A stretch of 20,359 nt of DNA from Elusimicrobiota bacterium (GTDB taxonomy: Bacteria > CG03 > SLGR01 > PWQF01), in contig PWOI01000211.1 of the NCBI GenBank assembly GCA_003557485.1, forward strand, positions 1 through 20,359, read 5' to 3'. The notes beneath the pieces were generated by a model that ran no database searches, had not been told where the DNA came from, and saw only the letters and a program-made list of their open reading frames with translations. The translations under genes and the position numbers were made by a program. Below, piece by piece: positions 3,027 to 20,359 of the stretch. How positions within the stretch are numbered: the stretch's first letter is position 1; every line of letters starts with the position of its first letter.

Positions 3027-3030
3027 TCTG

Positions 3031-4743: not shown

Positions 4744-4747
4744 TAAA

Positions 4748-5527
4748 TTGAAAGCCGATGATTCAAAAAATAAATTGAATGAGAAGGAGAGAAAGAAAAG
4801 CCTTATAATAGTTGATGACGAGATAAGCCTGTTGACTACCTTGAAATTTATTTTTGAGGATAACGGCTTTGATGTGGTTATGGCCGGCGGCGGTGTTGAA
4901 GCCCTTGAGATTATGACGAAAAGAACCTTTGATATGGCAATTCTGGATATAAATATGCCGGAAATGGACGGCCTTCAGACTTTCAGGGAGATAAAGAAAA
5001 ATTATCCCTCAACAGCGGTTTTTATGATGACAGGCAACAAGGAAAGCAGCCAGGTAAAGAAGTGCATAGAAGAAGGTGCGATAACTGTGGTTTATAAGCC
5101 TTTTTCTGTAAATAATCTTCTTGAAGTTATGGATAAGGTAGCAAGGAAGCCTGTAGTCCTTATAGTAGATGACAGGGGAGATGACCGGGTGATACTCAGG
5201 AGCGCTCTTGAAATTCACGATTACCGCATTATTGAAGCCAAAGACGGTGCGGATGCCATTGAAAAGGTTAAAAAAGGCAATTTTGATATATGCCTGATAG
5301 ATTACAAAATGCCCGGAATGAACGGTATCGAAACAATTGAAAATATAAAGAAAGTATCTCCTGATGCAAATATGGTCCTGGTATCGGCTTATACTCTTGA
5401 AGAAGCAATAAAAAGCGAATTGAAGGAGCAAAAAGGGGTTGCTTTCCTGAAAAAACCATTTGAAATAAATAACCTTGTTGATATTATCAAGGAAGAGACT
5501 TCGAAAAAAAAGAAGACAGAACAATAA
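4748..5527 (+). CDS. Tandem double-receiver response regulator
   Basis: 259 aa starting at TTG 4748, supported by AAGGAG at 4734-4739 with 8-nt spacing. Receiver 1 (~18-135): D23/D24, phospho-acceptor D67 in 'ILDINMPEMDG', T in 'MMTGNK', K in 'VYKPF'. Receiver 2 (~140-250): 'VLIVDDRGDD', phospho-acceptor D185 in 'LIDYKMPGMNG', Ser instead of Thr in 'LVSAYT', K in 'FLKKPF'. Both look competent. The short basic C-terminal tail (KKKKTEQ) carries no output domain. Double receivers without output are usually phosphate sinks, relay elements or adaptor proteins. The gene lies 4 bp after the histidine kinase and is probably its co-translated partner. Confidence 0.9.
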   Translation: MKADDSKNKLNEKERKKSLIIVDDEISLLTTLKFIFEDNGFDVVMAGGGVEALEIMTKRTFDMAILDINMPEMDGLQTFREIKKNYPSTAVFMMTGNKESSQVKKCIEEGAITVVYKPFSVNNLLEVMDKVARKPVVLIVDDRGDDRVILRSALEIHDYRIIEAKDGADAIEKVKKGNFDICLIDYKMPGMNGIETIENIKKVSPDANMVLVSAYTLEEAIKSELKEQKGVAFLKKPFEINNLVDIIKEETSKKKKTEQ

Positions 5528-5552
5528 ATATAAAACTGATTTAAAAATAAAA

Positions 5553-6785
5553 ATGACTGCCAAAGATAATACAAATCACAAAGAAAACGTTTTAATTGTT
5601 GATGACGATGAGTCAATAAGAACAACTCTTTCCTACATATTGGAGGACAAAGGGTTTAGTGTAGATACTGTGCGTGACGGTACAATGGCATTGGAGAAGA
5701 TATGCTACAAGGAATACAGCCTGGCTTTACTTGACTACAAACTGCCGGATACAGATGGTGTTTCGCTTGCAAAAAAGATAAAAAGAGAGGCCAGGAATAT
5801 TGAGGTTATAATTCTTACCGGCAAGGCGACTATGGAAAGCGCGATAGATGCGGTTAAGGAGGATATTTTTGATTATCTTCTTAAACCGGTTGATCCGGAT
5901 GAATTAATCAAGGTTATAGGGGAGGCTCTTGACAAGCAGCGGCTTATAAAAAAAAACCAGGAGCTTATGTGGGAATTGAAAAAGAAAAACAGGGAGATGG
6001 AGAAACTTAATAAATTTAAAAGTGGCCTGATATCAATGCTATCTCATGATTTGCGGTCTCCAATGAGTTCTCTGAAAGGGTTTAACGAGTCTTTTCTCCA
6101 AGGGTTTCTGGGTGATTTGTCACCGAGACAAAAAGAGGTGATTCAGACTGAAAACAGGGTTCTGGATTCAATGATGGAGCTAATCAACAGCCTGCTGGAT
6201 ATGGAACAGATTGAAGCAGGACAGCTTAGAATGAATAAGAAGCCCTGTTTCATAATAAAGGATGTAATGGACCCGGTTCTGGAAAGGCTGGGTATACTTG
6301 CGGATAAAAAAAATATTGATATACGTGTTAACTGCGGAAAATCATTGCCGGAAATTGAAATAGATCCCAACAGGATATCCCAGGTCTTGCAGAATATACT
6401 TCAGAATGCGCTGAAATTCACACCGGAGAACGGTTATATAGATGTAAGTGTTTCTGAAATCTCCGAGGGGGGTAAAATAGAAGTTAGGGTAAAGGATTCC
6501 GGAAAGGGTATTGCTTCTCATGAACTGAATTCAATATTCGACTCTTTTTATACACAAGACGGGGAGACCGAGCCCTATTCAGCCGGCAGAGGCCTCGGAC
6601 TCACAATATGTAAAGAGATAATTAAGGCGCACGATGGTGTTATATGGGCAGAATCAGACGGTGAGAATAAGGGAAGCTCGTTTATTTTTATACTTCCCGT
6701 TAACGGAGCCGGGAAAGAGTATGTTAAGAAGTTCTGGCAGTGCGAAAAGATTAAGTCCTGTAACGGCTCCGGAAATGGTTTGTAA
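5553..6785 (+). CDS. Receiver-histidine kinase fusion (soluble hybrid kinase)
   Basis: 410 aa from ATG 5553 (MTAKDNTNHKENVLIVDDDE). A TTG at 5475 would extend the frame into the preceding gene without conserved sequence. No strong SD is visible, so expression may rely on coupling. Order: N-terminal receiver (acidic D17-D19, phospho-acceptor D61 in 'LLDYKLPDTDG', T in 'ILTGKA', K in 'LLKPV'), a coiled-coil linker (~130-155), HisKA with H165 in 'MLSHDLRSPMSS', then HATPase with 'NILQNALKFTPENG', 'DSGKGI' and 'GRGLGLTI'. There are no membrane segments, so it is cytoplasmic and its kinase is presumably switched by phosphorylation of its own receiver. No Hpt domain is visible here or nearby. After the catalytic domain it ends with a short Cys-containing tail. 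Confidence 0.9.
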   Translation: MTAKDNTNHKENVLIVDDDESIRTTLSYILEDKGFSVDTVRDGTMALEKICYKEYSLALLDYKLPDTDGVSLAKKIKREARNIEVIILTGKATMESAIDAVKEDIFDYLLKPVDPDELIKVIGEALDKQRLIKKNQELMWELKKKNREMEKLNKFKSGLISMLSHDLRSPMSSLKGFNESFLQGFLGDLSPRQKEVIQTENRVLDSMMELINSLLDMEQIEAGQLRMNKKPCFIIKDVMDPVLERLGILADKKNIDIRVNCGKSLPEIEIDPNRISQVLQNILQNALKFTPENGYIDVSVSEISEGGKIEVRVKDSGKGIASHELNSIFDSFYTQDGETEPYSAGRGLGLTICKEIIKAHDGVIWAESDGENKGSSFIFILPVNGAGKEYVKKFWQCEKIKSCNGSGNGL

Positions 6786-6788
6786 GAA

Positions 6789-6796
6789 AAGGAGGG
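6789..6796 (+). promoter_or_regulatory. Strong Shine-Dalgarno supporting a TTG start
   Basis: AAGGAGGG lies 4 nt before TTG at 6801. There is no in-frame ATG nearby that would keep the conserved 'KKVMVVDND' receiver start, so this site decides the TTG start of the receiver gene. Confidence 0.75.
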
Positions 6797-6800
6797 TTTA

Positions 6801-7160
6801 TTGAATAAAAAAGTAATGGTCGTTGATAATGATCCTGTATTCCTTGAAGCAGCTGACGGTTTTTTAACTGGAAAAGGATATGAGGTGCTCAAAGCTGAAA
6901 ACGGAAAGGATGCCCTGGGCCTGGCGGTTAAGGAGCTCCCTGATATTATTATACTTGATGTTGTTATGCCGGGTATGAGCGGGTTTGAGGTTTGCCGCGA
7001 GATTAAAAAGAAAAAAAAGACAAAAGATATTCCTGTAATAATTGTGTCAGGAAAGATAAATGAGATTGAAAGGGGTTTTGATTTCGGGGCGGATGATTGC
7101 GTACTTAAGCCGTTGGACTGGGGAAAGCTGTCTGAAAAGATGGAGGCAATATTAGTTTGA
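6801..7160 (+). CDS. Single-domain response regulator preceding the Ser/Thr kinases
   Basis: 119 aa with a TTG start and an excellent SD. It is a complete receiver: D9/D11 in 'VVDNDP', phospho-acceptor D53 in 'IILDVVMPGMSG', Ser in 'IIVSGK' replacing the usual Thr, and K in 'CVLKPLDW'. There is no output domain. Its stop codon overlaps the TTG start of the transmembrane Ser/Thr kinase gene by 4 bp (TTGA), which implies translational coupling and roughly matched synthesis. By analogy with systems in which receivers modulate other enzymes, it could link the His-Asp relay upstream to the Ser/Thr kinases downstream. That link is inferred from gene order only. Confidence 0.9.
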   Translation: MNKKVMVVDNDPVFLEAADGFLTGKGYEVLKAENGKDALGLAVKELPDIIILDVVMPGMSGFEVCREIKKKKKTKDIPVIIVSGKINEIERGFDFGADDCVLKPLDWGKLSEKMEAILV

Positions 7161-8941
7161 ACAAATCTCCAAAAGTAATTGATAACAGATATGTGATAGA
7201 CCGCCTTATAGGTGTTGGGGGTGTTGCGTTTGTTTATAAGGCCTGGGACACTATGCTCCATAAATTTGTTGCTGTCAAAAAGATTCATGAAGATTACGCA
7301 AAAGACGCGAAATTTGTTGACATGTTCAGGCAGGAAGCTGTAAATACCGCAAAACTGGATAACGAGAATATAGTAAGAGTTGTTAATTTCATTAAATCAA
7401 AAGGTGATTATTACATGATAATGGATTATGTAAACGGAATTGACCTTGAATACCTTATAAAAAAATGCGCCAAAAATAATATAACGATTCCGCCAGAAGT
7501 CTCAGTTTATATTGTATCTGAAATAATAAAAGCCCTGGATTACGCTCACAATATGCGGGATGAAATAAAGGGAGAGCCACTGAATATTGTGCACAGGGAT
7601 ATTTCGCCAGGAAACATCATGCTTTATTATGACGGCAGAATAAAGCTTACAGATTTCGGTATAGCCAAGGCCGGGGAGGCTGATTCGGAAGACGAACCCG
7701 CAGCCGGAAAAGTCTCTTACATGTCACCAGAGCAGGCGCTTTGCGGAGGTGTTGATTCCCGTTCAGACCTTTTCAGCAGCGGACTGGTGCTCTACGAAAT
7801 GCTTACCTCCGAGAAACCTTACAAAGGTAAAACAAATATTGAAAAATGGAAAAAAGCTAAATCTGCGGATGTCGATTTTAAAAAAGTAAAGTCTGTAGCG
7901 GGGGCGGAAGATATTCTCCCGGTACTTAAACGTGTTCTTAGCAGGAACCCTGACGAGAGATATCAGAGTGCTGCTGAAATGTTTATCGAACTGAAAAAGT
8001 ATTTAAGCAGCATAGGTAATTCTGCAGATATTAATAAGCGATATGCTAAGTTTATTACTTCTGTCTTGAAAGAGGAGATTGAAGCTTCCGAGAAAGAGCT
8101 GCAGAAAGATCCGGGCATTAAATATGAAATTCCGGAGCCAGGACCTGATGAAGAAAAACAGGTTCTACCAGCAGATCTTCCTGAAGAGTCCGATGAATCA
8201 CCCGAACCTGAAGCCAGATCGGGTTTCGGATTGTTTTTCAAGGTAGGTGCAGCTGTATTTATTTTTGCAGTAGTACTTTTTGCTTTTTTTGATACCCAAA
8301 GGCAGGATTCCCTGTTAGGGAATATTTTCAGTTCTCTTGTTGATAGGGAAGAGACGGAAATAAGAATAGATACTATTCCTTCAGGAGCTTCTGTCGAGGT
8401 GCTTAATGAGTTTGGTTACGACATAGTAAGGAAAATGAATATTAAGGGGGAATCTCCGCTTTATCTTTCTGGTGTTGAGGCAGGAAACTATATGCTGAGA
8501 GCTGAAAAGAAAGGCTTCCGTCCTATTTCCCGCAGGATGACTGTTATTGGGCGCGGTGAAAATGCTTCCGTTTCAATTGCAAATGCCCGGATGACGGGAG
8601 ACCTCTACATTCTTCCTTTTGAAGTTGATATTTCCGTCAGGTCCCGCCCATCCGGCGCAACCCTTTATATTAACAACAGAAATGTCGGAACAACTCCGTA
8701 CACCGGGGTCCTTGAATCTGGGATTTATAGTTTTCGCCTTGTGCGTTCAGGGTATGAACCCCTCGGGGTCAGGGATCCCGAAGCGGGCGGTATGTCTTAC
8801 CTTAGGGGTATGTGCGTGCTTGATGTCTCTGCTCCTGTTTCCGGTCAGACCAATGTTGATATGCGGTTCTGGGAAGTCGGGGAGGTAATCTCGGACGGAA
8901 TAAGGCAGATAAATTTATTGGGATACTTGAAGAGGAATTAA
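7157..8941 (+). CDS. Transmembrane Ser/Thr protein kinase with two PEGA domains (kinase 1)
   Basis: 594 aa from TTG 7157, with GGAGG at 7142-7146. The cytoplasmic kinase domain (~8-290) has the Gly loop 'GVGGVAFVYKAWD', K41 in VAVKK, a Glu helix 'FRQEAVNTAKL', catalytic loop 'HRDISPGN' (H146, R147, D148; Ser where most kinases have Lys, as in many myxobacterial kinases), D166 of DFG and 'YMSPEQA'. The activation segment is short and acidic (EADSEDE), and the P+1 Thr of GTxxYMSPE is Lys. A charged, Pro/Glu-rich linker follows, then a TM at ~358-378. The extracytoplasmic part holds two PEGA-type beta domains (~403-465 with 'IPSGASVEV' and ~492-545 with 'RPSGATLYINNRNVGTTPY') and a conserved C-terminal 'RFWEVGE' segment. 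The PEGA part probably senses or binds an envelope component. It is a paralogue of the next gene, with catalytic residues at identical positions. Confidence 0.95.
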   Translation: MNKSPKVIDNRYVIDRLIGVGGVAFVYKAWDTMLHKFVAVKKIHEDYAKDAKFVDMFRQEAVNTAKLDNENIVRVVNFIKSKGDYYMIMDYVNGIDLEYLIKKCAKNNITIPPEVSVYIVSEIIKALDYAHNMRDEIKGEPLNIVHRDISPGNIMLYYDGRIKLTDFGIAKAGEADSEDEPAAGKVSYMSPEQALCGGVDSRSDLFSSGLVLYEMLTSEKPYKGKTNIEKWKKAKSADVDFKKVKSVAGAEDILPVLKRVLSRNPDERYQSAAEMFIELKKYLSSIGNSADINKRYAKFITSVLKEEIEASEKELQKDPGIKYEIPEPGPDEEKQVLPADLPEESDESPEPEARSGFGLFFKVGAAVFIFAVVLFAFFDTQRQDSLLGNIFSSLVDREETEIRIDTIPSGASVEVLNEFGYDIVRKMNIKGESPLYLSGVEAGNYMLRAEKKGFRPISRRMTVIGRGENASVSIANARMTGDLYILPFEVDISVRSRPSGATLYINNRNVGTTPYTGVLESGIYSFRLVRSGYEPLGVRDPEAGGMSYLRGMCVLDVSAPVSGQTNVDMRFWEVGEVISDGIRQINLLGYLKRN

Positions 8942-8942
8942 A

Positions 8943-11900
8943 ATGGTAATTAATGTTGGAAAAATAGCAGGTCAGTACGCTGTTTTGAGGACAATAGGTG
9001 AAGGTGGATTCGCTACCGTTTACAAAGCAGCAGATTTGACTCTACAGAGGTTTGTTGCAGTAAAAAAAATAAAAGAGGAATATATAAGTAATGCCGATGT
9101 TTCAGAAATGTTCCGCAAGGAGGCTGTGAATACGGCAAAACTTGAACACGAAAACATCGTAAAAGTAATAAATTTTGTTAAGGACGAAGAGAATCACTAT
9201 ATTATCCTGGACTATGTAAACGGTGTTGATCTGGAATATTTTTTAAAAAAGCTGTCGGAGGAAAAGGTTTCGATGCCCCCCGGCCTGGCTGCATATATTG
9301 TATATGAAACTCTCAAAGCCCTGGATTATGCCCATAATTATAGGGATGATTTGACCGGAAAGCCTATGAGCTTTATTCACCATGATGTTTCCCCGGGAAA
9401 CATTATGCTTTACTATGACGGCAGGGTTAAACTTACGGATTTCGGAATAGCAAAAGCAAGAGGGGCTGCAGCTAAAAAAGGAATACGGGGAAAAATAGCT
9501 TATCTTTCTCCGGAACAGGCAGCAGGTAAAGAGGCCGGCACGGTATCTGACCTTTTTAGTCTCGGACTGGTCTTCTATGAGGCTCTAGCCGGAAAAAGGG
9601 CCTACCGGGGGAATATGTCCCAAAAAATATGGCAGGCCAAAAAAGCTAAGGTAGACCTGAAAAGTTTAAAGAAAGGAAAAGTTCCGGAACCGGTTTTTGA
9701 AATTTTAAAATCCCTGCTGCAAAAGAAAACCAAGAAAAGGTATGAATCTGCTTCAAAGTGTCTTGAAGATATTGAAAAATATCTTCTTAGTGTTAAGGAA
9801 ATCAAGGAATGGGAGAGAGATTACAGGGTTTTTGTACAGGAAAAACTGGAAGAGGAAATATTAGCGTCAGAAAAAGAGACAAAAGAAGAAGATAAATTCG
9901 GGTTCGATTTGCAAGGGGAAGCAACTCCCGAGTTCTCTGAGGAGGCGGCTGATGTCCCTCCCGCAGAAAAAGAAGAGAAAGAAGTTTTCTGGGAACCCGA
10001 AGAAGAAGAGGTGAAAGAGCCGGAACCTGTAAAAGATGATGAAGGCCAAGAGTTGCCTGATGATGCGGCTGATGTTTCTCCCGCAGAAAAAGAAGAGAAA
10101 GAAGTTTTCCGGGAACCCGAAGAAGAAGAGGAGAAAGAACCGGAACCGGTAAAAAAAGCTAAAAAGGAAAAGAAAAAAAAGAAACCTGTAGATCTTTCCG
10201 GTGAAAAAGAAAAAACTGTAATAGATTTTATACTTGATACTGCCAAAAAACACAAAAAAATATTTATTTCTCTTATGGTATCGGTTTTGTCCGCTTTTGT
10301 GATATTTTCCGCGGTGGATACCTATTTAAGAATGACTCCTGTCGGTATAAGAATATATAATAAGTTTTGGCCTCCGGCCTTGAGTATAGATACCTACCCG
10401 TCTGGAGCCAGGATAAGGATAATAGACGAGAATGATGTGGATATAGTTAGCAAGTATGATTACAGGAGGATAACTCCGACATACATAGAAAGAATTCCTC
10501 CCGGTACTTATCAGCTCAGGCTTTCCAAGGAAGAATACGGTGAAATGACCAGAATAATTACTGTCCTTGAGCAGGAAACAGGCGAGCAGCAGATTACTGT
10601 CGGAGGTTCTGTAATGGAGCGTCAGGTCCACATAGTCCCGTTTGAGGTTTTGGTAAGTGTTGATTCTGTACCTCCGGGCGCTCTTCTTATGGTAAACGGA
10701 AGAAATGTCGGGCGTACGCCTTTCAGCGGCAATATTGAGATAGACCGTCACAACCTGCAGCTGGTTCGGGAGGGGTTTGAACCCCTTGGAATGCAGCAGA
10801 TGCCGCAACAGATGCAGCCGGGGGTCTGTGTTCTTGATACCTCACAAAGACTGGATGAGCAGTATATGATAGACCGGCGGTTTTGGAATGTGTCCGAAGA
10901 GACTCTTCCTGACAGGAGAAAAAAGTTTAATGTCACAGGGTTTCTGTGGAAATATATTTCAGTTAAGTCAGATCCTCCAGGCGCTCTCGCTTTTCTGACC
11001 GATCTTGATTCCGGGGAAACGGAAGAACTTGGAACAACTCCGCTAAGCGATATTATGCTGACTGTCGGTGAATATAAGCTTGATCTGCAGCGCCCCGGGT
11101 ATAAAGACTGGGAGGGGGAGTTTACTCTGGATGAGAACACCGAAGACATAAAGACTGTAGAGATGAAAAAGTATGTGACGGTAAACGCTCTTCAAAGTGG
11201 AACAGGAAGAAGAGTAAACGCCAACATTTCGGTCTCCCATCCCGCTATAGGAACAGTAAGGGGAGCAACACCGTTCAGAGTTGCCCTTCCTCCCGGAAAT
11301 GCAAGGTTCTCACTTTCTAATGAACCTACTTATATTCCGGTAAATGTAACCAGGGACGTCAGAAGGCTCGGTGAAACCTTTAATGTTGAAATGAGTCTAA
11401 GGCCGCCCCATCTAACTGTTGAAGTTAATCAGTTTACAACGGGAGCTCCTATAGGGGAGGCAACGGTATGGGTTAACGATATGTATTGGAAAAGAACCGG
11501 CAATACAGGCAGGGTTTCCGGGTTCCTTGACGATGACCCGGGAATGTTTGATATAGAAGTGAGATCCGAGGATTACGGTCAATACAGAACCCGTCTAAAT
11601 GTAAATCGTGGCCAGAGGAGACGGGTTGAAGTCCGATTGGGAGCGCCCCGGGACGGGTCAGTCTTTTTAGATATCCCGGACCGCTATACGGTAGAATCAA
11701 TAACAATAGGAGATGACAGATTCGGGGTTCCGCCTGACAATGTAATAAGGGAGATTCCCAGAGGCCCCGCTTATCTTGAAATCAAACTCAAGGAATTTGA
11801 CGAAGCTCTTTCGGCATCCCTGAATTTCGCCTCGGCAAATGAGATTTACGCAGTTAAACTTGTTGAGGACAGGCGAGAGCCGGTTTTAAGTGTTGAGAAC

Positions 11901-12416
11901 CTGCCTTCACTGAATGTTACTGTTCGGGATTATGAGACGCAAGATCCAGTGTCCGGCGCGCAGGTAAGACTGGGAGCAGAACTTCTTGGCCGTACGGGAG
12001 AGGACGGTGTTTATTCTTCAACCCTGCTTAAAAGCGAGGGAAAGTATATTCTTACTATTGAAAAAGAAGGTGTTGGTGAGATACGAACAGCAGCGCAGCT
12101 TGAAAACAACAGAACCGATAGTGTGGTTGTGGAAACAAATGCTCCCGTTGATGGCACTTTAATTATTGATGTGGGAGACGGAATATATGACGCGGCTGTT
12201 TATGTCGGAGGAAATTTCAGGGGAGAGAACCCCCGGCTTATACCGGCTATCCCCCGTGGCCGAAGTATTGTTGAGGTTAGATCGGATATACTTGGGTATA
12301 CCGTAACTAGGATTATAGAGATTAGCTCAAGACGCACGCTTGCCGTCTTAAGATTACGCCTTACAGAGACAGGCCTTGTAGTTGAAGAAGTAGACCAGAG
12401 AGAATTCCTGCGTTGA
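8943..12416 (+). CDS. Large transmembrane Ser/Thr kinase with HHD catalytic loop and PEGA/beta-domain array (kinase 2)
   Basis: 1157 aa, ATG 8943 with AGAGGAA just upstream, starting 1 bp after the kinase 1 stop. The kinase domain (~8-290) has 'GEGGFATVYKAAD', K41, catalytic loop 'HHDVSPGN' (H146, H147, D148), D166 of DFG and 'YLSPEQA'. The usual HRD Arg is His, and the segment from DFG to SPE has no Ser or Thr, so control by activation-loop phosphorylation seems lost; the catalytic Asp, Lys and DFG remain, so activity is plausible. Next come a Glu/Pro/Lys-rich linker with an internal duplication, a TM at ~440-462, and about 695 extracytoplasmic residues. These include three PEGA-type domains (~480-545 'YPSGARIRI', ~570-615 'VPPGALLMVNGRNVGRTPF', ~672-735 'DPPGALAFL') and further beta-sandwich modules resembling carboxypeptidase-regulatory/Ig-like folds (for example 'GAPIGEATVWVND' and 'DPVSGAQVRLG'). 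It shares all of kinase 1's layout plus a C-terminal extension of roughly 450 residues. Confidence 0.95.
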   Translation: MVINVGKIAGQYAVLRTIGEGGFATVYKAADLTLQRFVAVKKIKEEYISNADVSEMFRKEAVNTAKLEHENIVKVINFVKDEENHYIILDYVNGVDLEYFLKKLSEEKVSMPPGLAAYIVYETLKALDYAHNYRDDLTGKPMSFIHHDVSPGNIMLYYDGRVKLTDFGIAKARGAAAKKGIRGKIAYLSPEQAAGKEAGTVSDLFSLGLVFYEALAGKRAYRGNMSQKIWQAKKAKVDLKSLKKGKVPEPVFEILKSLLQKKTKKRYESASKCLEDIEKYLLSVKEIKEWERDYRVFVQEKLEEEILASEKETKEEDKFGFDLQGEATPEFSEEAADVPPAEKEEKEVFWEPEEEEVKEPEPVKDDEGQELPDDAADVSPAEKEEKEVFREPEEEEEKEPEPVKKAKKEKKKKKPVDLSGEKEKTVIDFILDTAKKHKKIFISLMVSVLSAFVIFSAVDTYLRMTPVGIRIYNKFWPPALSIDTYPSGARIRIIDENDVDIVSKYDYRRITPTYIERIPPGTYQLRLSKEEYGEMTRIITVLEQETGEQQITVGGSVMERQVHIVPFEVLVSVDSVPPGALLMVNGRNVGRTPFSGNIEIDRHNLQLVREGFEPLGMQQMPQQMQPGVCVLDTSQRLDEQYMIDRRFWNVSEETLPDRRKKFNVTGFLWKYISVKSDPPGALAFLTDLDSGETEELGTTPLSDIMLTVGEYKLDLQRPGYKDWEGEFTLDENTEDIKTVEMKKYVTVNALQSGTGRRVNANISVSHPAIGTVRGATPFRVALPPGNARFSLSNEPTYIPVNVTRDVRRLGETFNVEMSLRPPHLTVEVNQFTTGAPIGEATVWVNDMYWKRTGNTGRVSGFLDDDPGMFDIEVRSEDYGQYRTRLNVNRGQRRRVEVRLGAPRDGSVFLDIPDRYTVESITIGDDRFGVPPDNVIREIPRGPAYLEIKLKEFDEALSASLNFASANEIYAVKLVEDRREPVLSVENLPSLNVTVRDYETQDPVSGAQVRLGAELLGRTGEDGVYSSTLLKSEGKYILTIEKEGVGEIRTAAQLENNRTDSVVVETNAPVDGTLIIDVGDGIYDAAVYVGGNFRGENPRLIPAIPRGRSIVEVRSDILGYTVTRIIEISSRRTLAVLRLRLTETGLVVEEVDQREFLR
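9945..10153 (+). repeat. Direct duplication (120-bp period) in the kinase 2 linker
   Basis: An ~89-bp segment at 9945-10033 recurs at 10065-10153 with few mismatches, an exact 120-bp (40-codon) period. Each copy encodes 'PAEKEEKEVF(W/R)EPEEEE' followed by 'KEPEPVK'. It extends the acidic juxtamembrane linker between kinase domain and membrane without breaking the frame, and the high DNA identity suggests a recent event. Confidence 0.9.
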
Positions 12417-12419
12417 TCC

Positions 12420-12425
12420 GGAGGG
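12420..12425 (+). promoter_or_regulatory. Shine-Dalgarno choosing among three clustered ATGs
   Basis: GGAGGG lies 1 nt before ATG 12427, 7 nt before ATG 12433 and 13 nt before ATG 12439. Only 12433 has optimal spacing, so it is the preferred start of the fibre gene. The choice changes just two residues ahead of the signal peptide. Confidence 0.65.
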
Positions 12426-12432
12426 AATGTTT

Positions 12433-14151
12433 ATGAGAATGAAAAATATAAGAGTTTATCTGTTTTTGTCGCTTTTAATGTGTGCAGCTTCCCTGGCTTT
12501 TGCCGGCGGCCAGATAAGTTTTCAGGGTAAGTTAACCGACAGCGCAGGACAACCTGTGACGGATAATCTTGATTTTAAATTTAGGGTTTATGATGCTCAA
12601 GAACTCGGTTCACTTCAATGGACCGAAGATCATGACGATTTGAGGGTTACTGACGGTCTCTATAGTGTAATGCTGGGCTCAGTGACATCTTTATCCGGGA
12701 TTGATTTCAGCGAGTCACTCTGGCTGGAAGTTGAGGTTGAAAATCAGACTTTGTCGCCGCGTTACAGGCTTGCCGGCACTCCTTTCTCATTCTTTGCGTC
12801 AACGGCAGCATATGCCAGGGACAGTAAAAAATTAGAGGGGCGCGGTTTTGACGATTTGGTCAGCGCAATTGAAACAGAAATTGATGAAACCGACCCTGTA
12901 TTCAGTGCTGTTGCAAGCACATCTGCCGCGGGAATGAATATCCGGGATGGATTTCTTCTCAGCGGGACTACAGCCGAGTTTGATCTATTCAGGGGAGAGT
13001 TTGAGGGAGAGATAAGCACAGCTGCCTATGCGCACACAGCCGCCACGGCTGCTTATGCTCTTGAGGCGGGCAGTTACGCCGAAACCGACCCTGTCTTTAC
13101 CGCTCATCCGTCGTTCGGAATAACAACAAGCAGTATAGCAACGTGGGACCAGGCGCATTCCTGGGGAGACCATTCAGCAGAGGGATATCTGGTAAGTGAG
13201 ACCGATCCGGTCTTCTCTGTTTTTATGAGCACCTCTGATGCCGGGGTGACTATATCAACGCATACGACTGTTGAAGGCATACTGACAGCCGATAGCTTCG
13301 CAGGCGATATCAGCACAGCTGCCTATGCGCACACAGCCGCTACGGCTGCTTACGCCCTTGAGGCGGGCAGTTATGCCGAGACCGACCCTGTATTCAGCTC
13401 TGTTGCCAGTACATCTGCCGCGGGAATGATTATCCGGGAAGGATTTCTTCTCAGCGGGACTACAGCCGAGTTTGCATTGTTCCGTGGTGCATTTGAGGGT
13501 CAGATTAGCACAGCTGCCTATGCGCACACAGCCGCCACGGCTGCTTACGCCCTTGAGGCGGGAAGTTATACCGAGACCGATCCGGTCTTCTCTGTTTTTA
13601 TGAGCACCTCTGATGCCGGGGTGAGTGTGTCGACAAATATATATGTCGGAGGAGTTCTGGATTTATCAGGTGTCTCTTTCTCAGTAGTGGGTGATACCCT
13701 CTCAATCACGGGTATTGACTATACCGTACTTGAATCTACGCTTACGGTGAGGCAACTACATACCAGCGGAGCCGATCTTGCTGAAATATTTTCTTCACGT
13801 CAGGACCTTGAACCCGGAGATGTGGTTGTCATAGACCCCGATTATGATGTTGGTGTTATCAGAAGTTCTAAGCCGTATGATACTGCCGTTGCCGGTATAG
13901 TCTCAACAAGTCCGGGAACTGTTCTTGGTTACGGCGAGGATGGTTTTGCCATAGCCCTTGCCGGTAGGGTGCCGGTAAAAGTATGTGATGAGGGGGGTGA
14001 TATTAATCGGGGAGATCTTCTTACTACATCATCCATTCCGGGTAGGGCGATGAAAGCCGCTAATCCGCAGGTCGGGACCGTATTGGGAAAGGCTCTTGAG
14101 TCTTTTTCGGGCAATGAGGGCGTGATATACGTTTTGGTTGCTCTGCAGTAA
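12433..14151 (+). CDS. Exported fibre protein with tandem 'ETDPVF' modules and possible G2-type C-terminal domain
   Basis: 572 aa from ATG 12433. Signal peptide ~1-24 (FLSLLMCAASLAFA). An N-terminal module ('ISFQGKLTDSAGQPV' ... 'YRLAGTPFSF') is of a type common ahead of fibre repeats in candidate-phylum surface proteins. Repeats follow: alternating 'ISTAAYAHTAATAAYALEAGSY' spacers and 'ETDPVF' modules, plus one 'AHSWGDHS..GYL' unit. The C-terminal ~130 residues begin 'GADLAEIF' and continue with 'LEPGDVVVID', 'VAGIVSTSPG', 'ALAGRVPVKV' and 'VGTVLGKALE'. This resembles phage appendage C-terminal chaperone/autoprotease domains (peptidase G2 type, which start 'ADYAE') more than S74; the assignment is tentative. 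It shares 52-bp repeats with the fibre gene at the window start. Likely a homotrimeric surface fibre exported through the envelope. It starts 16 bp after kinase 2 and is likely co-transcribed with it. Confidence 0.85.
   Translation: MRMKNIRVYLFLSLLMCAASLAFAGGQISFQGKLTDSAGQPVTDNLDFKFRVYDAQELGSLQWTEDHDDLRVTDGLYSVMLGSVTSLSGIDFSESLWLEVEVENQTLSPRYRLAGTPFSFFASTAAYARDSKKLEGRGFDDLVSAIETEIDETDPVFSAVASTSAAGMNIRDGFLLSGTTAEFDLFRGEFEGEISTAAYAHTAATAAYALEAGSYAETDPVFTAHPSFGITTSSIATWDQAHSWGDHSAEGYLVSETDPVFSVFMSTSDAGVTISTHTTVEGILTADSFAGDISTAAYAHTAATAAYALEAGSYAETDPVFSSVASTSAAGMIIREGFLLSGTTAEFALFRGAFEGQISTAAYAHTAATAAYALEAGSYTETDPVFSVFMSTSDAGVSVSTNIYVGGVLDLSGVSFSVVGDTLSITGIDYTVLESTLTVRQLHTSGADLAEIFSSRQDLEPGDVVVIDPDYDVGVIRSSKPYDTAVAGIVSTSPGTVLGYGEDGFAIALAGRVPVKVCDEGGDINRGDLLTTSSIPGRAMKAANPQVGTVLGKALESFSGNEGVIYVLVALQ
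12886..13586 (+). repeat. 492-bp (164-codon) internal tandem duplication in the fibre gene
   Basis: Sequence from 12886 recurs from 13378 with a constant 492-bp offset over at least three landmarks: 'ETDPVFS.VASTSAAGM' (12886/13378), 'LSGTTAEF' near 12971/13463, and the 80-bp 'STAAYAHTAATAAYALEAGSY' block (13015-13094/13507-13586). A third copy of the 80-bp block sits at 13312-13391. DNA identity is high and the frame is kept, pointing to recent in-frame expansion. Confidence 0.88.
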
Positions 14152-14156
14152 TAGAT

Positions 14157-15374
14157 ATGAGATCGGATTTTTATTTTATTAAAAAAGCAACAGGCGTCAC
14201 AGCGTTATTAATTGCGTTTTTATTGTTGCCGCTTTCGCGTACGCTATGCGCCGGATATAACAGTGTGTGGGGGAGTTTTTCGTCCTCTTCCGGAGATGCG
14301 CAAAGCGTTGACGGCAGCTATCTTAATGTTGCCAGTATAGGGCAGGCGGCGGCTGACAGTGACCAGAGAATAGCAGGTTCAACCTATATGAGGCTTTTCG
14401 CCGGAATTCTTTCTTCCGAAATCAAGGTTCAGGATGTGAAATTAAGCTTTGCCGATCCATCACCTTCCCCTGATAAATGGAATGATTCTTTTGAAATTGA
14501 ATGTTCTGTCACTATTATATCTTACGTTAACAATATTGCCACCAATACTGTCGCGTTCCGCATTTCTTCTGAAGGTATAGACGAGGATAAGTTTTCTGAG
14601 TGGATCTTTACCGCTACAGGGGACAAGGATTCGGGGAAGGAGATAAGGTATTCGGTTGTTATTCCCACAGCCCCCGGCGGCGTTTCTTTTGCCCCCGGTT
14701 CAAATAATTATATTCAGTGGCAGGCCTATTATGAAGGAGGGGTAAAACCGGTGCCTTCAGGGCTGTATAATATTAAAATAATTGAGCCGGGAATTGAGAT
14801 TGTCCAGCCCGGCGATATCTCAAGTATTGTTCCTTCTATTGAAATAGATTTCACAGGCCCGGTTCAGCCGGACTCTATGAATATAAAAGTTTCAGAAAGA
14901 GGCGGACCGGTAGTGCTTGATTATAATCCGCTGCACGGTTCTGATAAGTATGAAGCCCAGTGGCCAGTTTCTCCTTTGAACCCGGAGACTTATTATGTTA
15001 TCACTGCTTCGGTCAGGGATACGGCTGATAATGAATATGAAGACTCAGCAGAATTCAAAACCGCCAAAGGCGTGATTGCCGACCTTATTCCTGTCCCATC
15101 TCCTGCGGATATAGGGAGGGAGGATATTGTAATAAGGTATGTCCTTGGCGGGAATTCAAGAGTCTGCATTGCCATATATGATGTGGCGGGGCGGCTGGTA
15201 AGGGAAATTATCAGCCGGGAAGCAAGGGAACCCGGTATCCACACTTCCGATAAGTGGGACGGGCGCAACTATGCCGGAAAAAGGGTTGCTAACGGAGTAT
15301 ACTTTTGCGAGGTTAAAGTGAAAAGCGGCGGGAAAGAGTACCGGCGCTACACTTCACTTGCTGTGTTAAGATAA
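14157..15374 (+). CDS. Secreted multi-domain protein with FlgD-like C-terminal domain (possible export signal)
   Basis: 405 aa, ATG 14157, 5 bp after the fibre gene stop, with no clear SD, so probably translationally coupled. Signal peptide ~1-32; the Cys near its end lacks a good lipobox. Residues ~33-90 form an N-terminal module with 'ASIGQAA' and 'YMRLFAGIL', a pattern frequent in secreted proteins of candidate phyla. The middle (~215-300) looks like a bacterial Ig-like (Big_5-type) domain. The C-terminal ~90 residues are a FlgD-like Ig domain: 'IAIYDVAGRLVREI', 'KWDGRNYAGKRVANGVYF', ending 'YTSLAVLR'. Such domains resemble type IX secretion C-terminal sorting domains. The next gene encodes a PorV-like protein, the kind of outer-membrane protein that receives those domains in type IX secretion. 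Export by such a route is therefore an attractive but unproven inference. Confidence 0.85.
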   Translation: MRSDFYFIKKATGVTALLIAFLLLPLSRTLCAGYNSVWGSFSSSSGDAQSVDGSYLNVASIGQAAADSDQRIAGSTYMRLFAGILSSEIKVQDVKLSFADPSPSPDKWNDSFEIECSVTIISYVNNIATNTVAFRISSEGIDEDKFSEWIFTATGDKDSGKEIRYSVVIPTAPGGVSFAPGSNNYIQWQAYYEGGVKPVPSGLYNIKIIEPGIEIVQPGDISSIVPSIEIDFTGPVQPDSMNIKVSERGGPVVLDYNPLHGSDKYEAQWPVSPLNPETYYVITASVRDTADNEYEDSAEFKTAKGVIADLIPVPSPADIGREDIVIRYVLGGNSRVCIAIYDVAGRLVREIISREAREPGIHTSDKWDGRNYAGKRVANGVYFCEVKVKSGGKEYRRYTSLAVLR

Positions 15375-16390
15375 TGAAAAAAGCGCTACTATTTATTTTT
15401 ATTTTTTCTGTGTCGTTTTTACCGGCCTCTTCTTCATACGGAGCTGACGCTTTTCTCAGAAGGGGAGCCGGCGCAAGGGCCATTGCTATGGGAGGCGCAT
15501 TAACTGCAGTTGCAAATGACTCGGCAGCGGCCTACTGGAATCCTGCCGGACTGGCCGGTATTGATGAGTACCGGGTTTCTTTTATGTTCCAGCAACTTGA
15601 CAGCGCCAGGTGGCCCGGAATGGAAGATATATCCCCCGAGTATCACTTTGTAAGCGTTATTCTCCCGTTTGAAAAACTAACCGGAAACGGCGTGGCAGCG
15701 GTTTCGCTGGTAAGGCACGGCATAGACAATATTCCTCATACCCGCTATGACGGCGCCGGGGGAATAGTAAGGGACAGTTTCAGCAGCTCAGATTCTGCCA
15801 TTATTGTTTCATATGGATATCCTTTTTTTGAAGGGCTTTTCAGGGCAGGGGGGAGTTTTAAGTATATTTCCAGAGACTTTTCTTCCATAAAAGACGGAAG
15901 CGCCCGCGGATGGGATATTGACGCCGGTTTTATTATAACCCTTTCTCCCGAATTGGACATAGGGGTAATGATGAGCAGGGGAGCGGAAGTGACCTGGGAT
16001 ACCGGGCATACCGATAAGGGCTCTTTACGGACCCGCCTAGGACTGGCTTATACGCGTTATATTGTTGACAACATATCTGTTCTTGCTACAATGGATTTAT
16101 GTCAGGAAAAAGACCATCCGCTTGCCGGGTCGGCAGGAACGGAAATACTTTTTCTCCCGGAAGTTGAAGGGATAAGTTCTTTTGCTGTAAGAGCAGGAAT
16201 GGATAGCTTATATTTGGAAAACCGGTACGGGAACACAGCAAGGTTGAATGAAGATATAGGTTGGAACGTCGGGGGCGGGATTGGCTCCCGTCTTTTTAAC
16301 CTGGGCCTTAATCTGGACTATGCCTTTGCTTTCAGGCGGCTGGGCTCCGGCCATATTTTCAATGTAACCCTGGGAGGCAAATTTAATTGA
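15374..16390 (+). CDS. PorV/PorQ-family outer-membrane beta-barrel protein
   Basis: 338 aa, ATG 15374 overlapping the upstream stop by 1 bp (TAATG). Signal peptide ~1-23. The mature N-terminus carries the family hallmark 'GAGARAIAMGGALTAVANDSAAAYWNPAGLAGI' (only the core is diagnostic: MGG..TAVA.D..A.YWNPAGLA). The remainder alternates short amphipathic beta strands with Gly/Asp turns and ends 'HIFNVTLGGKFN', consistent with a FadL-like outer-membrane barrel. PorV in type IX systems binds C-terminal domains of cargo and passes them to the attachment machinery; many PorV-like proteins in other phyla are uncharacterised. The 1-bp overlap with a FlgD-like-domain gene supports a functional pair. 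Confidence 0.9.
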   Translation: MKKALLFIFIFSVSFLPASSSYGADAFLRRGAGARAIAMGGALTAVANDSAAAYWNPAGLAGIDEYRVSFMFQQLDSARWPGMEDISPEYHFVSVILPFEKLTGNGVAAVSLVRHGIDNIPHTRYDGAGGIVRDSFSSSDSAIIVSYGYPFFEGLFRAGGSFKYISRDFSSIKDGSARGWDIDAGFIITLSPELDIGVMMSRGAEVTWDTGHTDKGSLRTRLGLAYTRYIVDNISVLATMDLCQEKDHPLAGSAGTEILFLPEVEGISSFAVRAGMDSLYLENRYGNTARLNEDIGWNVGGGIGSRLFNLGLNLDYAFAFRRLGSGHIFNVTLGGKFN

Positions 16391-17214
16391 AAAAATTTAA
16401 AGCAGTTATCTCTCTAGTTACGGTAGCGGCGCTGATGAATCTCGGCAGTTTTGCATACGCTTTCAGGGATGCGGCTCCTGAATCACGCCGTGCGGCTGAA
16501 GAACTTTCTGATGCAGGAATGTTCAGTTCGTTTATATACAAGTTCGGGAATAACTACTTTCGCCCTGAGGGCAATGTCTCCAGGGATGATATGCTTCTAA
16601 TATTAAGGGAATACTACGAAATAGCTAACAGGCTTTTTGAACAGAACCAGAACATTCTTTCAAGGCTTGGAGGCCTTGAAAGGGCTCAGCGGCAGCAGCT
16701 GACTTCTTCCGAGATTGATACTATAATAAGGGAAGTTCAGAGAAACCTTGATCCGATGCTTGAGCGTTCTGCAACGATAAGAAACCTCTCTGCGGGATCC
16801 GGCGCGGATACGGCCGCGCCCGGTGTTTCTCCTGATATAAGTAATGAGGTAGCCAGGCTTAAAGAGGAAGTTGACTCCATTTCACGTGAAATGAAGAAAC
16901 TTGAAGCAGCCTCCCCGGATCCCCGTTCCGAGACTGATATGTCCGGCCTCCGGCGGGATGTAGACAGGCTTAAGAGCGCCTTTTCTCACCTTGAGAGGAG
17001 CGCTGTTTCTTCGGATGAAACCGGTGAAATTAAAAAGGAAATATCTGAAATAAAAGATAGTCTTGATCTCATCGCTCGCGCTCTTGCAGAGGGAAGCGAT
17101 ATTCCTCCGGCGTTATACAGCCGGCCTTCCGCGATTGCGGATTCCGGACTTCCTTTCTGGACAAGGCTAAGTATAGGTTTTTCCGCGTTGACATTACTGT
17201 TTATGTCGAGATAG
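16387..17214 (+). CDS. SLH-like / coiled-coil / C-terminal anchor protein (Omp-alpha-like envelope tether)
   Basis: 275 aa from TTG 16387, overlapping the PorV-like stop by 4 bp (TTGA). Signal peptide ~1-25 (SLVTVAALMNLGSFAYA). Residues ~28-80 match the layout of one S-layer-homology domain ('AAEELSDAGMF' ... 'YFRPEGNVSRDDMLLILREYYE'). Residues ~80-220 are largely helical, with heptad-like stretches ('DISNEVARLKEEVDSISREM', 'GLRRDVDRLKSAFSHLE', 'GEIKKEISEIKDSL'). The C-terminus has a single hydrophobic segment (~255-273, WTRLSIGFSALTLLFM). SLH head, coiled-coil rod and short C-terminal anchor is the architecture of Thermotoga Omp-alpha, which spans the periplasm between peptidoglycan and outer membrane. 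The SLH match is by eye and moderate. It may tether or position the neighbouring outer-membrane and fibre proteins. Confidence 0.75.
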   Translation: MKKFKAVISLVTVAALMNLGSFAYAFRDAAPESRRAAEELSDAGMFSSFIYKFGNNYFRPEGNVSRDDMLLILREYYEIANRLFEQNQNILSRLGGLERAQRQQLTSSEIDTIIREVQRNLDPMLERSATIRNLSAGSGADTAAPGVSPDISNEVARLKEEVDSISREMKKLEAASPDPRSETDMSGLRRDVDRLKSAFSHLERSAVSSDETGEIKKEISEIKDSLDLIARALAEGSDIPPALYSRPSAIADSGLPFWTRLSIGFSALTLLFMSR

Positions 17215-17221
17215 ATAATGA

Positions 17222-17228
17222 GGAGGAG
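17222..17228 (+). promoter_or_regulatory. Shine-Dalgarno supporting a GTG start
   Basis: GGAGGAG lies 7 nt before GTG 17236, ideal spacing. The GTG gives the protein start 'MISILLKRKAEI', directly ahead of the first FHA beta strands. Confidence 0.75.
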
Positions 17229-17235
17229 ATAGCAA

Positions 17236-19440
17236 GTGATAAGCATTCTACTGAAGCGTAAGGCCGAGATTTTAAAAGAATTCAGCACCGGCCTTAAAGA
17301 GATAAAAATAGGACGGAGCCCCCGGAAAAACAATATAGTAATAAAAGACAAGCAGGTCTCGGAGACTCACTGTGTTATCCGCAGAACAGAAGAAGGTTTT
17401 GAAGTTGAAGACCTCAACACATCATTCGGCACACTTGTAAACGGAAAAAAGATAACCAAACAGAACATCTCTTTTAATGACGAGATTCAGGTAGGCTCTT
17501 ATATCCTGAATCCTGTCCAAAGTTCTCCGGCTGACAGACAGCCCTGCCTTTTAGCCATACACGGAAAAATGACCGGAAGAAAATTTGAACTTAATCCCGG
17601 TGAAACCAGGATAGGCCGGTCAGGCGAATTTAACGACTTATGGATACCAAAGGATATTGATCCAAGTGTTTCCCGCAGGCATGCGACTGTAATTGCTGAC
17701 GGCGGAAAATACATACTTAGCGATAAGCGAAGCAAAAACCGGACCTTCCTTAACCAGCGCCAGCTTAAGGAAACCGACGAGCTCCACCTAAAAGAAGGCG
17801 ACGAGATTTTGATAGGTAAAAACATTTTCAGGTTTCTCCCTGCCGGTAAAGAAGACTACTCCTATCCGGGAAAAGCCGGAATATTGTGGACACGCCTGTT
17901 TCCCAAATTAAGGATTGCCGTTTTTCTGATGCTCTTTGGCGCCGGCGCCTATTCTGCCTATACCGGGCTAAGCAGCCTTATGATTATTGATTACCGTCCG
18001 GCGCAGCATTCCCTTACGGTAAGTCCCTGGAGGCCCGAGGGATTGAGTCTTACTCCCGGCGGATTTCTTCAGGAAGAGCAGCTTGACATAACCCCTTCGC
18101 CTGCGGTAGGGGATGTCACCGGTGACGGGGCAAACGAGATTGTAATTGCGTCACCCGGAGGGGACATTTATGTCTGGAACAGTGAAGGAAAGCTTCTATG
18201 GCGCAAAAATTTTGCCAGAGCCGGCCTTACCACTCCCCAGCTTATTGATATCAGCGGCAACAGGCGGAAAGATATAGTTTTCGGATCGGATGACTCCAGG
18301 ATTTATGCTGTTGACGGAAGAACTGGGCAGCTGATATACAGGAGCACCTTTCTTGGGGGAAGAGTCCTCCCCGGTTCGGCTATTCTTGTTGATGATATTG
18401 ACGGAAGCGGGTTCAACGATATTGTTGCTGTTACGGACGACAGGGTAATATGTTTTATATACTCTCCCGTAGTTGGTGTAAGAAGGCCTTACTATTTCAG
18501 TACTGCAGATGATATAATGTCGTCACCTGTTCTTATTCAGTCAGGCGACAGCAAACATGTCGCTGTTCCAACAAACGGCGGCAATGTTTATGTTTTTGAA
18601 GGGTCAAACCCGGATAACAGGCGTGTCTTCGATGTCACAGGTGAGATAAACAGGGCAGCGGGTTTAAACCTTGTTCTTAACGAAATAAATACCAGTCCGG
18701 CCTCTGTTGATCTCAACAATGACGGCACTGACGACCTGGTTTGCGCAGCCGGTTCCTATTACGTAACTGCTCTTTCCGGCGCGGACGGCTCTTTAATATG
18801 GAAATACCGTATTGAGCCGTTTTCCCTGCTTGAACCGCCCCTGAGGTACGGGTCGCCGGTTATTGCTGATTTAAACGGCAACGGCAGGCCTGATGTTGCT
18901 ATAGCCTGGGCAAACGGCCGTATAATAGCCCTTGAAGGCGCTACCGGCCGGGAATTATGGGATTTCACCACAAGAGGTGAAAACAACAGGATAATAGCTT
19001 CCGCGGCGCTTGCTGACTTTAACAAGGATGGCCTGGCAAACCCTGTAGTCGCTTCCGAGGACGGCTCTGTCTTTATTATTGACGGCCGGGGCAGTGGAGA
19101 CAATATGGTGCTTGCATCTGCTGATATGAATGTTCCAATTACCGCAACTCCCGTTATAGCCGATATAACCGGAGACGGATATCTTGATATAGCAATACTG
19201 TCTGTTGACGGTAATCTCCGTCTGCTTACGACTTCTCTGAGGGTTTTCAGAAATGAAACCCGCTGGCCGTTATTCCGTAATACCCCGGACAACAGGGCAG
19301 TTATGTTCTACGAGGACAGGCAAGACATCTACAGCCTCTATGCCGCTTCGGGTGTTTTTGCTATACTGGCAGTTATGGTTTCAGTTATCATAATAAAGAA
19401 GAGGAGAAAAAGAAACCGTCCCCGGACAGTTAAAATATGA
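17236..19440 (+). CDS. FHA-FHA-TM-beta-propeller-TM protein (phosphothreonine reader with extracytoplasmic propeller)
   Basis: 734 aa from GTG 17236. FHA 1 (~1-95): G26-R27-S28, S42, H45 ('VSETHCVI') and N69-G70. FHA 2 (~105-210): G127-R128-S129, S146-R-R-H149 and N in 'KNRTFLNQ'. Both keep the Arg/Ser residues that contact phosphothreonine. TM1 at ~224-248 is followed by an extracytoplasmic propeller (~260-690) with repeats mixing FG-GAP/VCBS-like metal loops ('DVTGDGANEI', 'DIDGSGFNDI', 'DLNNDGTDDL', 'DLNGNGRPDV', 'DITGDGYLDI') and PQQ-type strands ('WNSEGKLLW', 'VDGRTGQLIY', 'LEGATGRELW'). I count seven such loops and probably eight blades. TM2 (~705-727) precedes a very basic tail (KKRRKRNRPR), giving both ends in the cytoplasm. 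It would bind Thr-phosphorylated proteins inside, plausibly the two kinases, and a ligand or protein outside. It overlaps the PP2C gene by 4 bp. Confidence 0.92.
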   Translation: MISILLKRKAEILKEFSTGLKEIKIGRSPRKNNIVIKDKQVSETHCVIRRTEEGFEVEDLNTSFGTLVNGKKITKQNISFNDEIQVGSYILNPVQSSPADRQPCLLAIHGKMTGRKFELNPGETRIGRSGEFNDLWIPKDIDPSVSRRHATVIADGGKYILSDKRSKNRTFLNQRQLKETDELHLKEGDEILIGKNIFRFLPAGKEDYSYPGKAGILWTRLFPKLRIAVFLMLFGAGAYSAYTGLSSLMIIDYRPAQHSLTVSPWRPEGLSLTPGGFLQEEQLDITPSPAVGDVTGDGANEIVIASPGGDIYVWNSEGKLLWRKNFARAGLTTPQLIDISGNRRKDIVFGSDDSRIYAVDGRTGQLIYRSTFLGGRVLPGSAILVDDIDGSGFNDIVAVTDDRVICFIYSPVVGVRRPYYFSTADDIMSSPVLIQSGDSKHVAVPTNGGNVYVFEGSNPDNRRVFDVTGEINRAAGLNLVLNEINTSPASVDLNNDGTDDLVCAAGSYYVTALSGADGSLIWKYRIEPFSLLEPPLRYGSPVIADLNGNGRPDVAIAWANGRIIALEGATGRELWDFTTRGENNRIIASAALADFNKDGLANPVVASEDGSVFIIDGRGSGDNMVLASADMNVPITATPVIADITGDGYLDIAILSVDGNLRLLTTSLRVFRNETRWPLFRNTPDNRAVMFYEDRQDIYSLYAASGVFAILAVMVSVIIIKKRRKRNRPRTVKI

Positions 19441-20359
19441 AAGTTCAATTTGCTGCAAAAACAGATAGAGGGCTGAAAAGAGAGATCAACGAGGATATGT
19501 ACGGGGTTTTCCCCGGGCAGAACCTTTTCTTTGCCTGTGACGGTATGGGAGGGCATGCTGCGGGCGATTACGCCAGTTCTATGGCTGTTGAGACCATATC
19601 GGGAATCAACCGGCCTAATTCGATGGAGCTTTTTGATCGTATAGGTTCATCGTACGAAAATATACCCTATGACGGCAGAAGGCTTGCCGTTCAGGTTATG
19701 CTTGCAAACAGGCGTTTGTTCAGGCTGGCTGTTATGTATCCAAAACTAAGGGGAATGGGTACGACGTTTACGGGTGTTATCTTCAGCAGCGGTTTTGCAA
19801 ATATTGTTAATGTGGGAGACAGCAGGACATACCTTTTCCGCAATTCATCTCTAAGGCAGGTTAGTGTTGATCATTCCTGGGTTGAAGAGTTACTGGAGGA
19901 CGGCGAACTGGCAAGGCAGGAATTGGATAGTTTTGGGGAAACCAATGTCATTACCAGGGCGCTCGGCACCGACCCATCTGTTAAAGTAGACGCTATGGCA
20001 GTGCGCGCCCTGAAGGATGACATTTTTCTTATGTGCACCGACGGCCTTTGCGGGGAGATAGATGACAGTCAAATAGAGCAGATACTACGTTCTTCCGGCA
20101 GTCTGGATGACGCCGCCGCGGCCCTGATTGAAGCTGCTAAAAGAGCTGGCGGCTCTGACAATATTACGGTTGTCCTTGCCAGAGTTGAGGAGGATCGGTC
20201 TCTGACGGAAATTATCAATACGGAAAAAATTGTTTCTGTCTCAGCCGATAAGCCGGAAAGCGAAGCTCTGGATGAATTTATAGACAAATTTTATCCTCCC
20301 GAAAAAACCGGCGTTCCTGACGGTGTGGAAAAAGAAAAGAAAAAGTTTTACCAGTACCC
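19437..20359 (+). CDS. PP2C-family Ser/Thr protein phosphatase (3' partial)
   Basis: ATG 19437 overlaps the preceding TGA (ATGA). The frame stays open to the window end, giving 307 residues. PP2C/PPM motifs occur in order: D10/R11 in 'KTDRGLKREINED' with D20, metal-binding D35 in 'ACDGMGGHAAG', 'GMGTTFTG', 'NVGDSRTYLF', 'DHSW', 'NVITRALG', D202 in 'CTDGLCG' and D241 in 'GGSDNITVVL'. All metal-coordinating Asp positions expected of bacterial Stp1/PrpC/PppA-type enzymes are present, so it should be active and manganese- or magnesium-dependent. It should reverse phosphorylation by the two upstream kinases. After residue ~250 a charged extension (ending KEKKKFYQY at the window edge) exceeds the usual ~240-260 aa catalytic domain, so a further domain or membrane anchor may follow. 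Confidence 0.95.
   Translation, partial: MKVQFAAKTDRGLKREINEDMYGVFPGQNLFFACDGMGGHAAGDYASSMAVETISGINRPNSMELFDRIGSSYENIPYDGRRLAVQVMLANRRLFRLAVMYPKLRGMGTTFTGVIFSSGFANIVNVGDSRTYLFRNSSLRQVSVDHSWVEELLEDGELARQELDSFGETNVITRALGTDPSVKVDAMAVRALKDDIFLMCTDGLCGEIDDSQIEQILRSSGSLDDAAAALIEAAKRAGGSDNITVVLARVEEDRSLTEIINTEKIVSVSADKPESEALDEFIDKFYPPEKTGVPDGVEKEKKKFYQY

Follow-up and report, generated by a model that had tools for sequence, protein, structure and literature searches.

Contig PWOI01000211.1 of an Elusimicrobiota genome (assembly GCA_003557485.1, 2.07 Mb in 212 contigs) raises the question which envelope machine may be controlled by a set of Ser/Thr phosphorylation genes. The entire contig of 20,359 nucleotides was analysed and is referred to here as the window (C139 in comparisons with other contigs). 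A sequence-only reading had described two PEGA kinases, an FHA/propeller membrane protein, a PP2C phosphatase, a fibre protein, a FlgD-domain protein, a PorV-like barrel and a tether, and all of these were recovered at the same positions on the forward (+) strand, to which all window coordinates below refer. We propose that the set forms a transmembrane phosphothreonine switch whose outputs are a type IV pilus and a linked set of surface-export genes, a reading to which we assign a probability of about 0.5.

The signalling core comprises two membrane Ser/Thr kinases, an FHA-propeller protein and a phosphatase. K1 (7157..8941; Pkinase 3.9e-44, PEGA 6.1e-21) has an HRD catalytic loop and PEGA domains past its transmembrane (TM) helix. 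K2 (8943..12416; Pkinase 4.3e-45) has an HHD (non-RD) loop, retains the catalytic K, E, D and N residues and DFG, and carries three PEGA stretches and a CarboxypepD_reg domain past its TM helix. The FHA-propeller protein (17236..19440; FHA 6.3e-34, FG-GAP propeller) is composed of FHA1 (aa 23-87), FHA2 (about aa 108-202), a TM helix, an eight-bladed BamB-like propeller (about aa 285-670) and a C-terminal TM helix. Residues G127, R128 and S146 of FHA2 are invariant in 46 FHA-propeller sequences and H149 is present in 45, while the FHA1 arginine is often lost in the same set; FHA2 has in addition two unusual arginines, R165 and R169. AlphaFold placed the propeller confidently between two predicted TM helices and gave the FHA domains low confidence, and the best natural structural matches of the propeller model were BamB structures. 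Because a TM helix follows the FHA domains, the propeller is predicted to be periplasmic. The PP2C phosphatase (19437..20359; N-terminal 307 aa) has conserved catalytic motifs and is cut by the contig end; its full length is about 510 aa, with a TM helix and PEGA-like domain(s) on contig C90 of the same genome. From the receiver gene upstream of K1 (rr3, 6801-7160) through PP2C, intergenic distances are -4 to +21 bases, in agreement with the nearly gapless array described earlier. Most array genes recur in corresponding order in three families of the window's order (f1, f2 and f3) at roughly 30-60% protein identity, which argues that the array is more than a chance assembly.

The array continues beyond the window. 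The window and C90 share 121 bases exactly, the final ones of the window being the opening ones of C90, and because such an exact end-to-end overlap is expected of assembly-graph neighbours, we take C139 and C90 as neighbours. C90 continues with the end of PP2C, PilB, a pilin, PilM, PilN/PilO-like proteins, PilQ and a protein with a response regulator domain, a TM helix and five PEGA stretches (RR/PEGA protein). PilB (639 bits) and PilQ (232 bits) scored somewhat under the curated cut-offs, PilM and PilT over theirs. Extension of the contig, proposed earlier as a way to look for secretion genes, thus led to a type IV pilus operon, missed before because its genes lie past the contig end. Among the relatives used for comparison, deposited as Elusimicrobia metagenome-assembled genomes (MAGs), G005 carries on a single contig (C78) the order FHA end, PP2C, PilB, PilM, PilN, PilO, secretin, RR/PEGA, TPR, PilT and PilC, and in G007 the C-terminus of K2 lies immediately before PilB. 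By gene content, the machine beside the array is a type IV pilus, and the two are linked in three of four informative genomes. The type IVa set (PilB, PilM, secretin, PilT and PilC in one operon) was found complete in G005; PilB, PilM and PilQ were found in the window's own genome, where a search with the last 162 bases of C90 matched only C90, so that PilT and PilC could not be placed. No kinase or FHA genes were found alongside the PilB-PilT-PilC loci of G004, G008, G009, G011 and G013. The RR/PEGA proteins (L048:6795-8961, L044:7772-10039, L050:6155-8632 and L047:10794-12965) have an unusual architecture: encoded within the pilus operon, they join a receiver via a TM helix to an array of PEGA domains with homology to the K2 array.

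The core was also found outside the phylum. A single FHA protein used as query of genome contigs returned nothing; an alignment-based scan identified relatives in MAGs of candidate division KSB1, where 36 of 82 genomes carry the FHA-propeller gene. In 38 of the 43 KSB1 loci that were read, a kinase gene lies directly beside it on the same strand, and most of these pairs are followed by PP2C, often also by a TPR protein and a TPR-kinase. Five TPR-kinases with a readable kinase domain (last kinase-like gene of the operon in L139, L140, L147, L164 and L169) have HxN for HxD and an altered DFG, and look like pseudokinases. In a kinase-domain tree, KSB1 partner kinases and those of the window's order group together (0.95), the L177 kinase included. 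Pilus or secretin genes accompany the core in 10 of the 43 loci, in two arrangements: PilO-like and secretin genes upstream (L158, L162, L164, L165, L166 and L168), or pilin, PilC and PilB downstream (L167, L169, L170 and L171). Most KSB1 loci have the core triad without fibre genes. Recurrence of the triad in nearly half of the KSB1 genomes searched points to an undescribed surface-appendage switch.

A candidate docking site for the FHA-propeller protein was found in K2. Its residues 425-428, T-V-I-D (10215..10226), form a TxxD motif 15 residues before the TM helix, and [KR]T[VI][IF]D occurs at the same position in the order's K2-type kinases, in nearly every partner kinase from KSB1 and in the pilus-operon RR/PEGA proteins of G000, G005 and G002 (three of four examined). 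In an alignment of 52 juxtamembrane segments that included controls and was made without selecting on the motif, T and D are both present in 43; a first column-conservation table had been chosen by motif presence and is not evidence for conservation of T and D. The nine segments without the pair are K1 of the window and of G005, the controls G002 C1, G024 and G028, the RR/PEGA protein of G007 and the KSB1 kinases of L161, L163 and L173. Substitution of S for T or of E for D is very rare, with one T-E (L173) and one S-E (an unlinked kinase). A pattern search of 503 thousand open reading frame residues, drawn from loci enriched for such kinases, matched at 43 distinct sites, of which 42 fall within the kinases and RR/PEGA proteins described here. 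Rad53 FHA1, a pTxxD reader, takes ligands of the TxxD type (PMC3146460), and the K2 threonine is accordingly named here as a candidate phosphosite. FHA2 R169 is retained in all 38 loci with the T-D kinase motif. Four loci (L161, L163, L173 and L177) have neither the T-D pair in the kinase nor R169 in FHA2: A or P replaces T in L161 and L163, E replaces D in L173, and the L177 kinase has no motif.

The proposed switch would work as follows. The PEGA ectodomains of K1, K2, PP2C and the RR/PEGA protein of the pilus operon would sense or bind something periplasmic. K1, K2 or both would phosphorylate the juxtamembrane TxxD threonine in K2 and in the RR/PEGA protein, and FHA2 would bind the phosphothreonine, thereby joining the kinase or the response regulator to the periplasmic BamB-like propeller. 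The propeller would probably contact the pilus secretin or PorV-type barrels; since BamB acts in outer-membrane barrel assembly, PilQ or PorV can reasonably be guessed as the propeller's contact. It would thereby gate pilus assembly or the export of the FlgD-tail and fibre proteins, and PP2C would remove the phosphothreonine mark. The sequences establish which genes are present, how they are arranged and that they are conserved, that catalytic and phosphate-binding residues are intact, and that the motif and R169 are missing together; topology, the phosphorylated threonine, its reading by FHA2, the propeller's contact and the pilus as output are inferred. The receiver/PEGA protein suggests that two-component and Ser/Thr signalling meet here. 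A more far-reaching version has kinase and response regulator share one docking motif read by the FHA-propeller protein; the two signalling systems would then meet in a single transmembrane clamp that governs type IV pili and PorV-type export in two phyla or more. It is put forward tentatively, and we consider it rather doubtful. Given the predicted docking motif, one peptide and one FHA domain would be enough to test the mechanism of the switch.

Several observations weigh against this switch. K2, judged by its loop, is a non-RD kinase of unproven activity, and neither K1 of the window, K1 of G005 nor the G007 RR/PEGA protein has TxxD. The co-absence of motif and R169 gave, uncorrected for phylogeny, a Fisher p of 9e-6, which overstates the support because L161 and L163 are a close pair and the four loci represent about three independent events. 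Neither G001 nor G003 nor the f4 genomes yielded the FHA-propeller gene, and in five secretin-linked KSB1 loci no PP2C lies beside the FHA gene. TxxD could also be structural, S/T-x-x-D/E being a known capping box: the threonine would then act as a helix N-cap that positions the TM helix, its conservation being unrelated to FHA binding. That the conserved stretch runs on through the amphipathic segment and the TM helix is in line with such a role, which would leave the near-absence of exchange of T and D across two phyla to be accounted for, as well as the lack of the motif in the window's K1, in an unlinked PEGA kinase and in those kinases that are paired with an FHA protein without R169. We regard an N-cap as possible but not probable.

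The output itself is also in question. In G002 the fibre, FlgD, PorV, tether, FHA, PP2C and kinase genes are intact, and the pilus operon lies unlinked on another contig with other neighbours; 33 of the 43 KSB1 loci have no recognised pilus gene in the surrounding 7 kb or so, and the output may therefore vary from locus to locus. Both observations would fit a general cell-envelope signalling module that stands by chance beside pilus or export genes in some genomes, the pilus not being its output. Chance placement is harder to reconcile with pilus adjacency in differing orders (PilO-secretin-kinase-FHA; kinase-FHA-PP2C-TPR-kinase followed by pilin-PilC-PilB; and FHA-PP2C-PilB in the window's genome and G005), and with an RR/PEGA gene inside the pilus operon that bears the juxtamembrane motif of the kinase. 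We consider such a general module unlikely, though it deserves to be taken seriously.

A further candidate output is encoded within the array. A secreted protein (14157..15374) with a C-terminal FlgD_ig domain (30.3 bits, over cut-off) that resembles type IX secretion system (T9SS) tails has relatives at the corresponding position in G002 and G005. It is followed by an outer-membrane barrel of the PorV/PorQ family (15374..16390; NCBIfam NF033709, 72.8 bits, cut-off 90) with orthologues in relatives, and by a protein (16387..17214) in which an SLH-like N-terminus, a coiled coil and a C-terminal hydrophobic helix were recognised by eye and from an alignment. This last product is a probable envelope tether; Pfam SLH gave no match to it and its AlphaFold model was too poor for use (predicted local distance difference test score, pLDDT, 54.5). 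On another contig (C42) the genome encodes a SprA homologue (a 1729-aa open reading frame, 199.6 bits vs cut-off 200), and for this reason a T9SS-like export path could include the FlgD-tail protein and the PorV barrel. PorV plus tether were found in two of the 43 KSB1 loci. L172 mirrors the window with kinase, FlgD-tail protein, PorV (95.7 bits, over cut-off), a short tether-like protein, FHA-propeller and PP2C; L173 has kinase, PorV-like, tether-like, FHA, PP2C, ExbB and ExbD. Repetition of this order in L172, together with SprA and the PorV-family barrel adjoining a tail-bearing protein, would suit a T9SS-like export locus under kinase control, with PorV as shuttle, the FlgD-tail protein as cargo and the pilus genes as bystanders. 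We think this improbable, as the tail scores under the T9SS sorting domain cut-off (17.9 vs 23), SprA lies on a separate contig and no PorV or FlgD genes were recognised beside the pilus-linked KSB1 triads. ExbB/ExbD (L173:10609-13010), just downstream of the L173 set, is a possible proton-motive-force coupling. On the minus strand of L172 (10852-15791) lie more FHA genes and TadE/TadC-looking genes, of which three were tested and gave no NCBIfam match.

Of all parts of the array, the fibre is the least conserved. The fibre protein with repeats (12427..14151) has a counterpart in G002 that matches at the C-terminus only (57% identity), and in G005 the slot is occupied by a FlgD-tail protein. 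The earlier proposal of a different phosphorylation-controlled surface system stands for the co-encoded, conserved triad with envelope genes outside any type VI secretion system (T6SS), and falls short in the poorly conserved fibre and the overlooked adjoining pilus. Positions 1-1359 encode part of a second fibre, its 5' part cut by the contig start, with YadA-head repeats and a C-terminus resembling an S74-type chaperone; ETDPVFS repeats are common to both fibre pieces. Between this piece and the signalling genes, 1489-2187 encodes a DUF285 protein with signal peptide (7.4e-19), a surface repeat family best known from Mycoplasma. Upstream of K1, a two-component block (2595..7160; Pfam) joins the array without a gap: a receiver (2595-3026), a histidine kinase (3007-4743), a double receiver (4748-5527), a receiver-histidine kinase (5475-6785) and rr3, which overlaps K1 by 4 bases. 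The block is also present upstream of K1 in G005, with one additional receiver gene, and partly upstream of the array in G002. G001, the MAG of a sister species (same genus, 82% complete), yielded neither a full FHA-propeller gene nor a K2 match, so either some members of the genus lack the array or it was missed there. Rfam gave no matches in the window.

Parts of this set resemble several known systems. The fibre N-terminus resembles the N domain of the mosaic adhesive trimer (MAT) fibres of Bdellovibrio (PMC10769870), but scores under the cut-off (29.7 bits vs 60), and the fibre slot is not kept among relatives. With Rad53 FHA1 the window shares a TxxD candidate ligand and an FHA reader (PMC3146460), whereas its site is bacterial, juxtamembrane and a candidate phosphosite, and other arginines are proposed for recognition. 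PknB/Stk1-Stp1 pairs have a kinase domain and a PP2C of the same broad type (268 bits vs cut-off 450 for the PASTA kinase model and 227 vs 230 for the Stp1-type model); the window kinases differ in having PEGA ectodomains in place of PASTA repeats and an FHA-propeller partner. The Sulfolobus archaellum network is archaeal and acts on archaellum expression, and it is not known to have a PEGA, propeller or secretin partner. It is alike in that eukaryotic-type kinases (ArnC/ArnD), an FHA protein (ArnA) and a phosphatase (PP2A) regulate a type IV filament (PMC5300886, PMC12852372). In the open-licence literature we found no paper tying a kinase-FHA-PP2C set to bacterial type IV pili.

The T6SS is the best-known case of an envelope machine controlled by a kinase, an FHA protein and a phosphatase; there, a kinase promotes assembly by phosphorylating Fha (PMC12607579) in what has been named the threonine phosphorylation pathway (PMC5995506). 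A search for the sheath protein VipB (VipB/TssC), positive in the E. coli control, was negative in all 16 genomes of the phylum, which bears out the earlier remark that no T6SS genes are visible and rules out the T6SS as partner machine. A left-over PpkA-Fha-PppA pathway after T6SS loss would explain the same three activities; it would have to accommodate the missing VipB and an FHA protein with TM helices and a propeller, whose match to the TagH/Fha model (67.5 bits, cut-off 120.25) spans the FHA domains only, and we consider it very improbable. Both systems combine a membrane Ser/Thr kinase, an FHA scaffold and a PP2C with an envelope-spanning machine, whereas the window has PEGA kinases, a two-TM FHA protein with a propeller, and type IV pilus and PorV-type genes. 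By this comparison the window system most likely works like the T6SS kinase-FHA-phosphatase pathway, yet is no member of it: the three activities are the same, but they reside in proteins of clearly different architecture and are linked, in candidate phyla, with type IV pili and PorV-type export.

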